Shown here piece after piece: positions 19,794-28,426 of a DNA stretch of 64,000 nucleotides. Source of the stretch: Pseudomonas oryzihabitans. Its GTDB lineage: Bacteria > Pseudomonadota > Gammaproteobacteria > Pseudomonadales > Pseudomonadaceae. The stretch is taken from positions 958,001 through 1,022,000 of the forward strand of contig NZ_CP021645.1 in NCBI RefSeq assembly GCF_006384975.1. Reading direction: 5' to 3'. How positions within the stretch are numbered: the stretch's first letter is position 1; every line of letters starts with the position of its first letter. The notes under the pieces were generated by a model. It ran no database searches. It saw only the letters and a list, made by a program, of their open reading frames with translations, and was not told the origin of the DNA. Made by a program: the position numbers and the translations under genes.

Positions 19794-20210
19794 TCTTTGA
19801 GATTGCGCATCGGTGGCGCCTCAGCTGGACTGTACGACGCGAGCGATGACTGCTTCTTCAACACTGAGGCGAAGTCTCGCGTCGCGATACAGGAGTTCGG
19901 ATGCGGCGGACGATCAATACGGAGATCCCATCCGAATTGAAGACGTCACCCTCCAGTTCCACTGTTCATCTGGTGCTCAACGCCTACAAAATTACCGAGG
20001 CGCGTATGTCGGACACAATCGCTACTAAACATTGAACCGACTAAAAGCCGCTTGTGACCACCGATGTCATAGAGGCTCACCCGAAAGGGTGAATCCCCTA
20101 CAGCGTAATCAATATCAGTAGATTTTCAATCATCAAAAATATATTAGGCAGATTGAAAAGCGAAGGCAGGGCTAGATGTAGTTAAAGGTCGGTTTGCGAT
20201 GACTTTATTG
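19794..20210. other. Intergenic, no gene seen
   Basis: About 420 bases between the peptidase operon and the convergent lipoprotein gene. Base composition shifts from GC-rich to AT-rich here. A small stem-loop (TCACCC-GAAA-GGGTGA, about 20079-20094) lacks a T-run and is a weak terminator candidate. I see no credible coding frame or RNA gene. Confidence 0.5.
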
Positions 20211-21140
20211 TTAATTTTTTGTTTTGCTCCAAGCCTCAAGTAGCGACTTTGATTGCGCAACAGTGGTCGCAACCAATTCAATACCTGTCGTGTCCGTTGT
20301 GGCGGCTGCTGCTAGGTTGGCACCGCATACTGAGTGAAAACTTATGGTGCCCTTCTTAGGCAGTGGAATGGTTTGAACGTAACTGGGGTCTGCAACTTTC
20401 GTAGTGAACGATTTTCCTCTAAACTTTCCGCTTCGAATTTCCACATTGATGGTTCGGCAGGCAGAAGTGAGCAATACGTGGCGCATCTGGTTGAGTTCTC
20501 CTCGCGATTCTTTGTCTCTAAAGAGCGCTGCTCCTGGCGGAGCGTCTTCAAGAAAGTTGACAAATAGAGTTATGGAGGATTTTCCAGATTTTAGCACGAA
20601 CTCTTGGTTAATCTTTACCCTAGGAAAATCATACGGGTCGAAGGCTACTGGATAGGGTTCCTGTGGCGGTGTGGCTACCGGATCTGCCGATATGGCTCCA
20701 AGCACGTTACCCTCAAGGGTGCCACTCCAGAAGGGGCTTTTCACAATGCTTAGCCCATCCACAGCGGCGGCCCCAATTGCTGAGATGACAGTTTTTCGAT
20801 TATCCACCACCTCAGTCCCTACGCTTGCAAGAAGATCAGTATTGGAAATTTTAGTCCATTGTAGTGTGGTTTTGCGCCCCCAAGGATCATTGGCTGCGAC
20901 TGCGAGAAATGTCTTCGACTCTGCAGGAACAGCGGTCAGTTCTATTCCCGACTCTCCTGAACTGATGCGCTCCCCGTTTTTGTCTTTCGGATAATCAATT
21001 ACGATGATTGACTTGGGCAAGGCGTAACGCATCCGTCCCTCTGGATCCCACCCATCTAGCTTCTTATACTCTACTGTCGGTAACGAGCCGCAACCGGCCA
21101 GTGCTCCTAATGCTACGAAAGCCCACTTGCACTTTTTCAT
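20211..21140 (-). CDS. Hypothetical lipoprotein
   Basis: A 309-residue protein with a lipoprotein signal (MKKCKWAFVALGALAGC; lipobox LAGC), so it is likely anchored to the inner or outer membrane. The ATG at 21140 is preceded by GGAGGG. The rest is soluble and mostly beta-rich in appearance; I recognise no domain. The gene is clearly AT-richer than its neighbours, uses codons unlike the core genes and is flanked by AT-rich spacers, which points to horizontal acquisition. It stands alone. Confidence 0.7.
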   Translation of the reverse strand: MKKCKWAFVALGALAGCGSLPTVEYKKLDGWDPEGRMRYALPKSIIVIDYPKDKNGERISSGESGIELTAVPAESKTFLAVAANDPWGRKTTLQWTKISNTDLLASVGTEVVDNRKTVISAIGAAAVDGLSIVKSPFWSGTLEGNVLGAISADPVATPPQEPYPVAFDPYDFPRVKINQEFVLKSGKSSITLFVNFLEDAPPGAALFRDKESRGELNQMRHVLLTSACRTINVEIRSGKFRGKSFTTKVADPSYVQTIPLPKKGTISFHSVCGANLAAAATTDTTGIELVATTVAQSKSLLEAWSKTKN

Positions 21141-21460
21141 CGCAATGCCCTCCGTTGCACGGCCCCAAACGGCCGACTCAAGCAATAGATTGCTCCGACA
21201 TGTTTTTATGTCAAGTGTCAAAAACAGTGACGACCACTCTTGCCGTTTTTAGATAACATTGTGCTGGTAAGCTGGAAGCCGGGATTAGCTCCTTCCTATA
21301 AGGGTTTAGTTCTTTTTTCCTAAGTGCACGGCATTCAATAGGAAAAATTAATTCCGCATAAAATAAGGATTGAATAGAAAATCAATCCATTAAGAAAAAG
21401 AGCATTTGACTCGGGAGCCCTGGGAGCAAAAACCCTCCTACGGTGCTCTGTAGCCTCTTA

Positions 21461-23663: not shown

Positions 23664-24416
23664 GTGGTAAGTCGAAATAATCGAGATGAGTTTGGAGCGG
23701 CGAATACTCGTATTTTGCAAGAGCGTGTTGGCAACAAGTGTTCTAATCCAGATTGTCGAAGAACTACCTCTGGTCCAAATTTTCAAGAGGATAAATCTAC
23801 GAGGATTGGGGTTGCTGCTCACATTACCGCTGCTGCACCCGGCGGTCCTCGTTTTGATTCTTCCCTTACGCCGTCTGAGCGTAGCTCAATCTGGAATGGC
23901 ATTTGGCTATGCCAGACTTGCTCTCGATTAGTCGACGTCGACCAGTTCCGATATCCGGCAGTAATGCTTCATCAGTGGAAGCACGACGCGGAGAATAGTG
24001 TGCTGGAAGAAATCGAAGGAAAAACCAAGCCGCTGAGGGTAAGTTACCCCTCTGAGCCCGAGGAAAAAGAGGGATGGATTTGTCCGTACTGCAAAACAAT
24101 AGCCGATTACGATCAGCTGGTTTGTCTCGGGTGTCACGCCGATATTGTTCATGGATCAACAAATAAAGAGCGTGAGGAAGCCGCAAAATTTGGACTGATG
24201 ATCGGCGGAGCTTTTTCATTTTTACTATTCATGCTTTTTCCAGGCTGGTTAAATTCAACTTTTGACTGGCATGTTCCGGTGGCATTTGGCTTTGGCTTCT
24301 ATGCACTTTTGTTAGGGGTAGTGGTTAGCGTAGCCTTGGCTAAATTATGTCTTTCTTTCGAAGTCAGACGTCGCGCCTCTCAGCCGCCTAGATTTTTTAG
24401 AAATACTTTAAATTGA
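23664..24416 (+). CDS. HNH-like treble-clef / zinc-ribbon membrane protein
   Basis: A 250-residue protein in AT-rich DNA. Residues 26-110 carry Cys26, Cys31, the motif GVAAHITAAAPGGPRFD (His53), and NGIWLCQTC (Cys83, Cys86), the layout of an HNH-like nuclease fold found at the N-terminus of many accessory proteins. A second Cys4 zinc ribbon follows (Cys140, Cys143, Cys154, Cys157), then two hydrophobic helices (about 177-195 and 204-230). The start is probably GTG at 23664. The mix of a nuclease-like domain with membrane anchors is unusual and resembles defence effectors, but function is unproven. It faces away from the two-gene module downstream. Confidence 0.7.
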   Translation: MVSRNNRDEFGAANTRILQERVGNKCSNPDCRRTTSGPNFQEDKSTRIGVAAHITAAAPGGPRFDSSLTPSERSSIWNGIWLCQTCSRLVDVDQFRYPAVMLHQWKHDAENSVLEEIEGKTKPLRVSYPSEPEEKEGWICPYCKTIADYDQLVCLGCHADIVHGSTNKEREEAAKFGLMIGGAFSFLLFMLFPGWLNSTFDWHVPVAFGFGFYALLLGVVVSVALAKLCLSFEVRRRASQPPRFFRNTLN

Positions 24417-24740: not shown

Positions 24741-26570
24741 CTAAACGAGATGAATTTTTTTGTGTTCGCTTGGACTCAGGTTTGCACTGGTTCGGCGCGA
24801 GGACCAATAAACCGAGTGAGCCTGGAGAGTTTCTAAGGTAGGTTGCCAAGTATCTGAAACCACACTTGAAACGGGCTCTTCCCTCTTAATTAGTGGGAAC
24901 CAAAGCTGTGGCGGCAATGGAAGCCGACTATGACGGCAGGCCATTACAAAGACCGGCCAATGGCCAAGGCGTACAGAAGACAGAGCAGTATAGTGCCCCC
25001 CGTCAGAACACTCCCTTATTAGGATATCTCTGGCTGCAGCACCATCGGCTGTGATAGGTATGTCACAAAGGGCAAAGCCATGCGAGGAGTCACCGTGATA
25101 CAGGGCAACCTCCGTATCAGGCCCGGGCATCCAAAGCTGGTGATTGCAATGCTTCATTTCGCTTCGTGCGAATCTAGCGAAATGTTCGCTAGCCTCCGTT
25201 TTGCCACCCAGGGTGGAAAAGAGCAGCATGATCGGAATGAGAGTGCTACCCTTTGTATGCTGCGCCCGACATTCTTCAGTCCTGGCCTGGGGATGCCTTA
25301 TAAGCTCCTGGTAGCTGCCGTAAATGGTTGGGTATCGATAGTGTCTAATAAAATTGAAGTGGTAGTAGTTTAGAAGCTCACGGCAGTATTCCTTCGCATG
25401 GCTGCGCCAGTCTTTCATCATCGATAGGAAGGTTAAAGCGCAACTGATATTAGTGACTTGCTCATCGGCTATTGGCGAGAACAGAGCTTGATTATTATTG
25501 ATGAGTTCGACGATGTGCCGGGCAAGATCAGATGCTTCCTCCGGTACATCTGAGGTATCAAGCACTTGTAGCGCATTTGTATCTAAGTGAGGCCAGAGCA
25601 CCCACAGCCCCCTGACCGCGATACGTCCCAAAACCTCAAACAGCTTGAGGTTGATGTCCACTGCACTGTGGGAATTTACGGAGCTGGCTAACGCATCTCG
25701 TTTGGCCGTCAGCGGCAGAATTTTAACTTCTATCAGCTCTGACCAGATATTGGTGTGCAGATCGAGCAGTTCATTGAAGGTCAACCCAATATGCTTGTGT
25801 CCTATCGATGCATCCTCAATATCTCTCTTGACCAGCTCCCATGCACGTAGAATAACTAGTTCGCTGGCTCGATATGGGGCTTCTAGGTTTTCCTGCGTGC
25901 GCGCCCAGACGAACAGCACCGAGAGACAAATATACATTTGTCTTAGCGTGGCAAGCCGCTGGGAGGCTTCGAGGTTTTCGGCCTTCACTAACCCTTCAAT
26001 TAATGCGGTAAAGTGGCGAATTGAGACATCAGGCTCATCAAGCATTGCGATAGACTTCTGGAAGTGAGACTGCAGGGTCTTGCTTACGTGCTGGTGCTGG
26101 AGCACTCCATTAGCAAGCAAGCCTGCCATGTAATCGCCATTCCACTCCTCAAAGGAAATTCGGTCATTAGCAAGCCTGCTCATCAAGCCTGTCAAATTAT
26201 CTCTTACAGCCTCTTTAACATCACCCCCGAAGCACAGGCAGATTACAATCCTCAATGACTCGTATTGGGTAGAAATCCGCTTGGGGATGTATACGTCTAT
26301 GATGTCGTTGATTGAAGTTCTTACCCCTTGGGGTACTGCGTCCCACTCTGCCCGAGTTAGGTCTCCCTGCTTGATTGTAAACAGGTAAAGCTTCCGCTCA
26401 CCATCTATCTCTGGGCCTACAGCGGCCACATCAACTCCAAATTGACGTGGCCCCGTCGATGGACGCGAGATAACATTAAAGCCAAGTTCGCTCAACAGAT
26501 CGGGTAAAACGACGTCCAGTTCATTACGCTCGCGGAGCGAAGCGAGGTATTCACGGAATACGAGTTTCAT
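24741..26570 (-). CDS. Large protein with N-terminal PD-(D/E)XK nuclease-like domain
   Basis: A 609-residue protein in AT-rich DNA. Residues 20-100 look like an Mrr-type restriction-endonuclease fold: Glu28 in a helix, Asp47 in QFGVDVAAVG, and Lys67 in LYLFTIKQGDLTRAEWD. The position two before Lys67, normally Glu or Gln, is Thr65, so catalysis may be altered. The rest (about 150-600) is mostly helical and matches nothing I know. Its ATG overlaps the stop of the HEAT-like gene by four bases (ATGA), so both are made together. Candidate nuclease effector of a two-gene system; defence is inference. Confidence 0.72.
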   Translation of the reverse strand: MKLVFREYLASLRERNELDVVLPDLLSELGFNVISRPSTGPRQFGVDVAAVGPEIDGERKLYLFTIKQGDLTRAEWDAVPQGVRTSINDIIDVYIPKRISTQYESLRIVICLCFGGDVKEAVRDNLTGLMSRLANDRISFEEWNGDYMAGLLANGVLQHQHVSKTLQSHFQKSIAMLDEPDVSIRHFTALIEGLVKAENLEASQRLATLRQMYICLSVLFVWARTQENLEAPYRASELVILRAWELVKRDIEDASIGHKHIGLTFNELLDLHTNIWSELIEVKILPLTAKRDALASSVNSHSAVDINLKLFEVLGRIAVRGLWVLWPHLDTNALQVLDTSDVPEEASDLARHIVELINNNQALFSPIADEQVTNISCALTFLSMMKDWRSHAKEYCRELLNYYHFNFIRHYRYPTIYGSYQELIRHPQARTEECRAQHTKGSTLIPIMLLFSTLGGKTEASEHFARFARSEMKHCNHQLWMPGPDTEVALYHGDSSHGFALCDIPITADGAAARDILIRECSDGGHYTALSSVRLGHWPVFVMACRHSRLPLPPQLWFPLIKREEPVSSVVSDTWQPTLETLQAHSVYWSSRRTSANLSPSEHKKIHLV

Positions 26571-28327
26571 TGTGATCGCTTCTCGTACAGAAAGTGGAGG
26601 ATCTGAAGCTCCAGCGTAGAGGGTTCTAGAATCGAATGTCTTGGCAACTGAAATGAATGTTGAATAGTGGCGAGCGATTGCTCCACACGTCGCATTGACC
26701 CTGTTTCACCTTCGGCCGATCCCTGTGGGGGAGGGAACTCCGGAACCCAGCTAGCAATACTATTGCCGTAAAGCATGATTTTTTCAGTGGCCAGCTTCGC
26801 TATAATTGAAGATTTACGAGCCTTTATCATCTGACTTTGCATTTCCTCATTGCCCCGATGACGCTCCAGCTGACGCTCACGCTCCGAGGGCTGCAGTTCG
26901 CGGATGTGCCTGCTGCCGAGGTCTTCCAAGTATTTCTGCAATTCCTGCAAGACTTTCTTAACAGCCTTCGAAGCGAGATCTGTGCTACTCCCTGCAATCT
27001 CATCCAGGTAATCTGATCGCAGACCAGAATAGTTGATAAGAATAGGATCGAACAGAAGACTCTGCAGTGCACCCATGGTCATGTCCGTGGCGTTACGCAT
27101 TAGGCTGACTATAAAAGAAGCAATGAAGACTGGTTTCAAGAAAAAGCTCCCAAGAGCTTTTTTTGCAATGAATATGTAATCACTTTCCGGCACATCCAAC
27201 GCGTGACAAAAAATGAGCGTAAACACTCGACCTTCACTGGCTACAAATAGGCTGTCTCTGATCGCAATAGATAAACGCAATGGCTCAGACCGGAGCCAGT
27301 TGACTATCCACTCGTCCAAGATTCTATGTTCGCCGCTCTCAAGTTGATGTAGCACTGAACTGAAACGAATGAATGGAACGCCGGGCTCACTGAGGATGAA
27401 CTTCTCAATCACATTTCGAGCTTCTGAAACATCACCTTTCCTGATTAGTTCAGCTAACAAGATGTCTAGTAACTGGACAATTTCATCCTCTGGCTGGCCT
27501 GAAGCTACAAGCTCAAGGAGGTCGCGACGGACTTGAGCACTGTAGTAGCTGGAGTTGCCCAGTAATTGACGAGCAACCGTTTCTTTTGCTGTCAATGTAA
27601 TGGGAGTACTAGCTCGCTTTATTAGTTTGTATGTTGATTGCTCAAGTTCTACTGGAGCTTCTTTTTGCCATGCAAGTGCTAAGGCGAGGAGAGCGTCTCG
27701 TACCATAGGTTCGGTCTCACGCTCGACCACGACAAGGATGGTCTCGATCAAGCCAACGTTCGAACGTCGTACTTCAGCAGACAAATTGCAGAGGGCTCTG
27801 GCTGCCTGGGCGCGCTGAGAGGCGTCGCCGTTTTCAAGAAACTTAATCGCCTGATCCAAGTAAAATTCAGCATCCACCATGACTCCAGCGCTTATGCATG
27901 CTTGGAGGCAATGAAATCGCTGAGAAAGTAGAGCGTCTGATTTGATGAGCTGCAGCAGTTCAACGGGCCGCTCCGGCGATGTTTGACACCACTTAAGTAT
28001 CTGAGCGTACGAGGAATGGCTGAGTATGGGATTGTCATTAGGGATTACCCGAGAAATTAGCTCAAGTAAATCTTCAGTGCTAATGGCAATTGAGCCAAAC
28101 GCCGGTAGGAGAATCTCCATCCCATATAGCAATTCGTTGTTCGAAAAGCGGGAATGCTCAGGCAGAGGGATGAGGGTGCGCAGATCGACATCCATTGACT
28201 GATGAGCATCGATCAAAGCTTGGGAGAAGAGCGCGCTATCGTGCCGCCAGCTATTCTCAATTATTAGATCTAATAGCTTGTTTTCTGCAAAGGCTCTAAC
28301 AATTTCATCTCGCGATTGGGTAGTCAT
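26567..28327 (-). CDS. Large helical, HEAT/ARM-like repeat protein
   Basis: A 586-residue, almost wholly alpha-helical protein without signal peptide. Segments such as ASQRAQAARALCNLSAEVRR and EPMVRDALLALALAWQKEAP look like HEAT/ARM repeats. A charged, possibly coiled segment lies near the C-terminal third (ELQPSERERQLERHRGNEEM). The ATG at 28327 is favoured by AGGAG five bases upstream over an ATG eight codons earlier. It is the first gene of the pair with the PD-(D/E)XK-like protein and starts 100 bp from dif. Such helical solenoids often sense or bind nucleic acid or protein partners; the role here is unknown. Confidence 0.7.
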   Translation of the reverse strand: MTTQSRDEIVRAFAENKLLDLIIENSWRHDSALFSQALIDAHQSMDVDLRTLIPLPEHSRFSNNELLYGMEILLPAFGSIAISTEDLLELISRVIPNDNPILSHSSYAQILKWCQTSPERPVELLQLIKSDALLSQRFHCLQACISAGVMVDAEFYLDQAIKFLENGDASQRAQAARALCNLSAEVRRSNVGLIETILVVVERETEPMVRDALLALALAWQKEAPVELEQSTYKLIKRASTPITLTAKETVARQLLGNSSYYSAQVRRDLLELVASGQPEDEIVQLLDILLAELIRKGDVSEARNVIEKFILSEPGVPFIRFSSVLHQLESGEHRILDEWIVNWLRSEPLRLSIAIRDSLFVASEGRVFTLIFCHALDVPESDYIFIAKKALGSFFLKPVFIASFIVSLMRNATDMTMGALQSLLFDPILINYSGLRSDYLDEIAGSSTDLASKAVKKVLQELQKYLEDLGSRHIRELQPSERERQLERHRGNEEMQSQMIKARKSSIIAKLATEKIMLYGNSIASWVPEFPPPQGSAEGETGSMRRVEQSLATIQHSFQLPRHSILEPSTLELQILHFLYEKRSQ

Positions 28328-28426
28328 AGCAGCTCCTGCCAAGAAGTCCATTGCTCAGGTATCGCTTAGCTTGGTCGTATACTAGATGTTACGACCGCCA
28401 TGAAGCGAGTGACTAGCAAGTCTTTT

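Follow-up and report, generated by a model that had tools for sequence, protein, structure and literature searches.

A chromosomal oloA-oloB pair beside dif in Pseudomonas oryzihabitans, assigned by sequence to the Olokun anti-phage system

Olokun (oloA-oloB) is an anti-phage system reportedly described by Millman et al. in 2022. Published texts list it among the defence systems in E. coli islands, place it in a Pseudomonas genomic-island hotspot, and mention it among the systems of strains lysed by one phage. One source gives its mechanism as unknown, another describes the system as not thoroughly characterised, and a third, which tabulates mechanisms either validated or predicted, enters it under nuclease activity. 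The present study concerns two overlapping genes in a 64,000-nucleotide stretch of Pseudomonas oryzihabitans DNA (contig NZ_CP021645.1, positions 958,001 to 1,022,000), hereafter the window. An earlier note, made from the sequence alone, had proposed them as a candidate new defence or conflict system. The gene pair is real, but its novelty is ruled out, as PADLOC profiles name both proteins as Olokun.

Identity of the gene pair and its proposed mode of action

OloB matched PADLOC profile PDLC03926 with E 1.4e-208 (residues 1-562 on profile positions 1-555 of 556), and OloA matched PDLC03925 with E 7e-81 (residues 7-585 on positions 12-595 of 596). Homologues of OloB are widespread, 1260 being found at E<=0.001 among the 7995 candidates scored, and these numbers together with the near full-length family matches exclude a chance match. 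Since profile searches of Pfam, NCBIfam and PHROGs gave nothing useful for either protein, the pair seems unnamed when only those collections are considered. The window pair agrees with Olokun in both genes, their order, their coupling and the near full-length coverage of the profiles. By its sequence it is a chromosomal copy of this already named system, and an ordinary member of it. The lead given by the note is thus resolved to a known defence system, the mechanism of which is testable through three candidate catalytic residues, the unusual Ser/Thr-x-Lys motif and a defined segment of OloA as the putative docking element.

The features of the locus are collected in Table 1. As in other Olokun loci, oloA and oloB are adjacent and form one operon. 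The two open reading frames (ORFs), their ATGA overlap and their AT-rich character within a GC-rich genome were as stated in the note, with a GC content over the pair of 47-50% in 1-kb windows versus 60-70% in most flanking windows (other low-GC flanking windows lie at 23.0-24.7 kb and about 19.8-21.5 kb). In 43 of 44 related loci the upstream ORF overlaps oloB by 1, 4 or 17 bases; three of these 43 upstream ORFs are short or truncated where the contig ends or close to that point. An alternative in-frame start of oloA at 28351 would give a protein of 594 residues; the 586-residue form was preferred because GGAG stands 5 nt upstream of the start at 28327 and because its M1 does not vary in any of the 37 rows of the OloA alignment. 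The leader likely contains the promoter region and the ribosome site.

Table 1. Positions in the window of the oloA-oloB genes and adjoining features
Feature	Positions	Strand	Description
oloB	24741..26570	-	609 aa; residues 1-156 predicted PD-(D/E)XK nuclease-fold domain, then ~400-residue helical domain
oloA	26567..28327	-	586 aa; predicted HEAT/ARM-type alpha solenoid ~1-470 and conserved C-terminal segment ~477-586
ATGA stop-start overlap oloA/oloB	26567..26570	-	4 bases, seen in sequence; translational coupling
oloAB leader, ~73 bp	28328..28400	-	upstream end of shared cassette; nucleotide homology to four relatives starts at 28393-28400
dif TTTAACATAATATACATTATGCGAA	28428..28452	+	exact match, single in the 5.36-Mb genome

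The interpretation that we favour, and consider probable, is that of an Olokun defence system in which OloA acts as the sensor, with a C-terminus that docks OloB, and OloB as the nuclease. OloA, a solenoid of HEAT repeats and the variable part of the system, would most likely recognise an infection cue, its conserved C-terminal segment would most likely dock OloB, and the helical domain of OloB would most likely restrain or assemble its N-terminal nuclease (E17, D47, [S/T]65-x-K67). When infection is sensed by OloA, the OloB nuclease would be released or positioned, and would cut DNA, phage or both. On this view, the pair reached the variable stretch left of dif as a small cassette of foreign origin. 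What the analysis shows is that the proteins belong to the profile families, together with their predicted folds, the conserved residues, the coupling of the genes, a genomic position that varies and, in a small sample, defence neighbours; OloA sensing, docking by its C-terminus, and DNA cleavage with its target are what we infer.

Predicted structures and conserved segments of OloB and OloA

The predicted structure of OloB has the alpha-beta-beta-beta-alpha-beta core of PD-(D/E)XK nucleases, carrying D47, T65 and K67 and followed by about 400 residues that are helical in the model (residues 565-609 were modelled at low confidence). This agrees with the proposal, in the earlier note, of an Mrr-like nuclease fold with Asp47, Lys67 and Thr65 and a long helical part behind it; a structure prediction lacking a nuclease fold had been named there as an outcome that would speak against it. 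D47 and K67 were present in 44/44 rows of a diverse set from which a fragment (L046) was left out, and they are, together with the helix-1 acid E17, invariant in sequences down to ~32% identity. The FokI cleavage domain and the nuclease domains of MspJI and AspBHI are among the closest known PD-(D/E)XK domains, at 7-9% identity to OloB, which differs from them in having Ser/Thr at the position of the acid before xK and in that no restriction-type recognition domain was recognised in it. As to the PD-(D/E)XK effectors Lamassu LmuA, Hachiman HamA and Shedu, their structural Z scores to OloB are in the range of a common arrangement, and their partner proteins are not known to resemble OloA.

The AlphaFold model of OloA (pLDDT 76, 37 sequences) is an alpha solenoid of stacked helix pairs, of the HEAT/ARM type, in line with the helical repeat protein foreseen in the note. 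It resembles the PP2A-A scaffold and karyopherins, a kind of match that is common for repeats. Of the nine columns conserved in no fewer than 40 of the 41 OloA rows (a set without L018, L031, L032 and L046), eight fall in 433-569; the C-terminal segment is the most conserved part of the protein. It is worth noting that residues 496-586 were modelled at low confidence when OloA was modelled alone. The combination of conservation and poor modelling would fit a segment that takes up its fold upon binding to its partner. A tblastn search detected OloA in 42/44 loci; the two misses were L033, with an upstream gene that is OloA by profile (E 1.5e-85), and L046, which is a fragment.

Consistent with such a segment, the C-terminal part is also kept where OloA is short. 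In a Klebsiella plasmid (L072) and in one genome (G661), OloA is 300 residues long and its match is confined to the later half of the profile, and in another genome (G847) a 355-residue upstream ORF matches profile positions 227-577. On a Burkholderia ubonensis plasmid (L071), a protein of 141 residues matches only positions 481-595; in L071:979-6039 the genes for a CBASS cyclase, a 2TM effector, this C-terminal protein and an IS3-interrupted OloB touch each other. The 141-residue protein was considered as a new class and set aside, as the OloB behind it is interrupted and the search found just one other short relative; for the same reasons it is no less likely that a single locus has decayed. 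The modularity of OloA is a lead from few cases. In the Klebsiella plasmid (L072:1-5686), the short OloA and OloB are preceded by a DUF6932 protein and lie near the end of a GajA-like gene.

Distribution and defence neighbours

Among 144 related genomes OloB was found in one, that of the window itself, which is also the sole OloB carrier among 13 genomes of the genus. With this genome included, it was found in 4/369 genomes of the class and 9/398 of the phylum, one of the nine being a 45-position fragment and one (G306) distant; the latter, with E 7e-50, is counted in both totals, and an OloB profile built for the present analysis found no matching ORF in its locus (L075). OloB also occurred in 34/72,556 plasmid records and in 5 virus-derived contigs. 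When E. coli genomes were searched at the DNA level with the OloB of a Citrobacter, 14/5426 gave a match, with 32% of the query covered in the ten matches listed and none above 80%, a kind of search that says little on rarity. The possibility of a core gene in a fixed context, which the note had given as a ground for refutation, was discarded: none of the 143 other relatives covered by the search, including 12/12 genus mates, has the pair.

This patchy distribution, like the coupling of the two genes and an order in which the putative inhibitor leads, would suit a toxin-antitoxin pair in which OloA is the antidote and OloB a toxin freed when a phage disturbs OloA. Both proteins are large, and OloA has no Pfam or NCBIfam match at a meaningful score, so we regard this explanation as rather unlikely; it overlaps with the sensor-and-nuclease interpretation if OloA inhibits OloB.

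Known defence genes were sought around OloB, as the note had suggested, and in a small sample of seven loci more PADLOC families were matched there than in controls. At E<=1e-20, matches to 33 PADLOC families came from the 88 neighbour ORFs, and matches to 3 from 103 control ORFs of the same seven genomes; these 3 are mad3, which is common to both lists, and two DinG models. Among the 25 of the 33 neighbour families that were listed are Septu PtuA and PtuB, a type II methyltransferase and SoFic, each with one ORF.

Several considerations weigh against the defence nuclease interpretation. The neighbour counts are of families, each of which matched one ORF, with several overlapping models, so that the distinct proteins are fewer than 33; moreover, one of the seven stretches was limited to 12 kb. 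No OloB was found in 50,697 phage records. The mean identity over 820 pairs of 41 rows was 29% for OloA and 46% for OloB, with OloA below OloB in 99.9% of the pairs, and such a rapid divergence of OloA is compatible with a sensor but also with weak constraint. Concerning OloB itself, Foldseek gave no match in the PDB at E<=0.001 (the MspJI row had E 0.2, prob 0.98), a PDB sequence search with both proteins of the pair gave no relative (best E 0.89 and 0.35), and the nuclease match rests on a VIA second look and on residue conservation. Furthermore, the acid or Gln that PD-(D/E)XK sites usually have two positions before the Lys is missing: residue 65 is Ser in 39 and Thr in 5 of the 44 rows, so that catalysis is not assured.

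The nature of residue 65 gives room to the idea that the nuclease-like domain does not cut, but only binds nucleic acid, with protection exerted by the helical domain or by blocking phage replication. Ser or Thr occupies the place of the usual D/E/Q in 120/120 rows of a near set and in 44/44 of the diverse set, which overlap in part. On the other hand, D47, K67 and E17 are invariant, as one would expect if they formed an active site and the domain were not dead. In addition, some restriction enzymes with an (S/T)xK motif, in which the acid is displaced, are active (Cfr10I/Bse634I type), and a helix-1 Glu is used by TnsA and Hjc. It seems reasonable to interpret OloB as having a variant PD-(D/E)XK site with inferred catalysis, and to regard a non-cutting OloB as unlikely, somewhat more so than the toxin-antitoxin pair.

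The dif site and its flanks

The start of oloA lies, as the note had indicated, 100 bp from an exact and single copy of dif, the XerCD chromosome dimer resolution site, whose consensus was known beforehand; no such site with <=3 mismatches appeared in 100 shuffles of the sequence. This vicinity, together with the location of two close relatives also near dif, could point to a role in the biology of the chromosome terminus or dif instead of defence. Such a role is highly improbable: the pair is missing from all 143 other relatives searched, of which the 12 genus mates all keep dif, 42/44 Olokun loci have no dif-like site (<=4 mismatches) in the flanks examined, some of them short, and Olokun is found on plasmids and virus-derived contigs.

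The window pair belongs to a Pseudomonas-type branch of Olokun, and the OloBs nearest to it (L003-L006) are 79-85% identical to that of the window. The OloA of the window is only 14-34% identical to those outside this group. The DNA common to the window and L003-L006 consists of the two genes and about 70 bp of leader. Upstream of oloA, dif is found at 0.1 kb in the window, 2.6 kb in L004 and 4.6 kb in L005, in the same relative orientation, that is, on the same side and in the same orientation in 3 of the 4 testable genomes (L006, whose contig begins <0.9 kb upstream, was left out). In L003, no dif was found in 8.2 kb other than a site that lies 1.7 kb upstream of oloA and is oriented likewise, but has 8/25 mismatches and is too weak to count. 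Between dif and oloA, L004 and L005 each encode a protein related to a tyrosine recombinase found beside dif in the genus (23-24% identity, pairwise E 4e-13 and 1e-9); a Pfam scan recognised neither the L004 nor the L005 protein. Docking of Olokun at one side of dif is a lead from few cases.

A broader interpretation would join modularity and cassette: the C-terminal segment of OloA as a stand-alone adaptor that both docks and arms the OloB nuclease, the HEAT solenoid being varied, halved or replaced (on one plasmid, by an upstream CBASS cyclase and 2TM effector), and one Pseudomonas branch as a mobile cassette of two genes, inserted repeatedly at the same side of dif and in fixed orientation, beside a family of dif-associated tyrosine recombinases. 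Taken jointly, we find it doubtful.

Concerning the genus, dif is kept in 13/13 genomes. An aldo/keto reductase gene to its right is kept in 9/12 relatives, and the other three have there, at <100 bp, a tyrosine recombinase gene (L048:1569-2924, L050:147-1433, L051:122-1408); the one scanned matched Phage_integrase with E 2.7e-7 and shares 83% and 93% identity with the remaining two. The left anchor genes were found in 5/12 relatives; among the other seven, the L063 stretch spans ~5 kb. The interval left of dif varies. In the window it holds Olokun and an HNH gene; in the nearest relative (L067:15540-17226), Septu-like genes, namely PtuA in two separate ORF pieces and PtuB; and in another (L070:2031-4556), an 841-residue NERD-helicase protein of 45% GC at 515 bp from dif. 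Nine selected ORFs from seven relatives were scanned, and the remaining five encode a bacterial PH domain protein (twice), a dehydrogenase, a chemotaxis receptor and a LacI-type regulator; by eye, four relatives have apparent metabolic genes left of dif. Defence-like genes thus adjoin dif in 3/13 genomes, and on this count defence cassettes may turn over in the genus at the left flank of dif. No paper was found tying a Pseudomonas dif/terminus genomic-island hotspot to antiphage genes.

In Vibrio, mobile DNA that brings defence genes with it is known to insert at dif (PMC11630473), and the filamentous/tailless prophages integrating there resemble the present case in the use of dif as a hotspot for mobile DNA able to carry defence genes. 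The window island differs from them in having no second dif-like motif and no phage gene, by eye, among its ORFs. Between 23451 and 28600, the next best site had 11/25 mismatches (a one-base-shifted overlap of dif excepted), and an Xer-integrated element of the IMEX type, with dif at both ends, was discarded as only one dif is present.

Some minor observations complete the picture of the flanks. A second aldo/keto reductase copy lies inverted ~5 kb left of dif in L066, besides the usual right-hand one. An ORF of 336 residues (20211-21221, minus strand), in a low-GC patch of the window (19800-21400, ~48%), is lipoprotein-like by eye, without a Pfam match. The window HNH gene (23664-24416, plus strand) encodes 250 residues, of which 11-119 match PADLOC PDC-M68A at 8.9e-26, with weaker matches to endonuclease effector and SAVED_HNH models; the PADLOC matches end near residue 124 and no SAVED domain was matched. 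After the HNH-type domain, a zinc-ribbon-like Cys motif and two membrane segments can be seen by eye. It was discarded as a third Olokun component, since a relative was present in just 1/44 Olokun loci (L007, 38% identity), and it is possibly a separate defence gene. In L003, another HNH-like ORF adjoins oloA, by eye.
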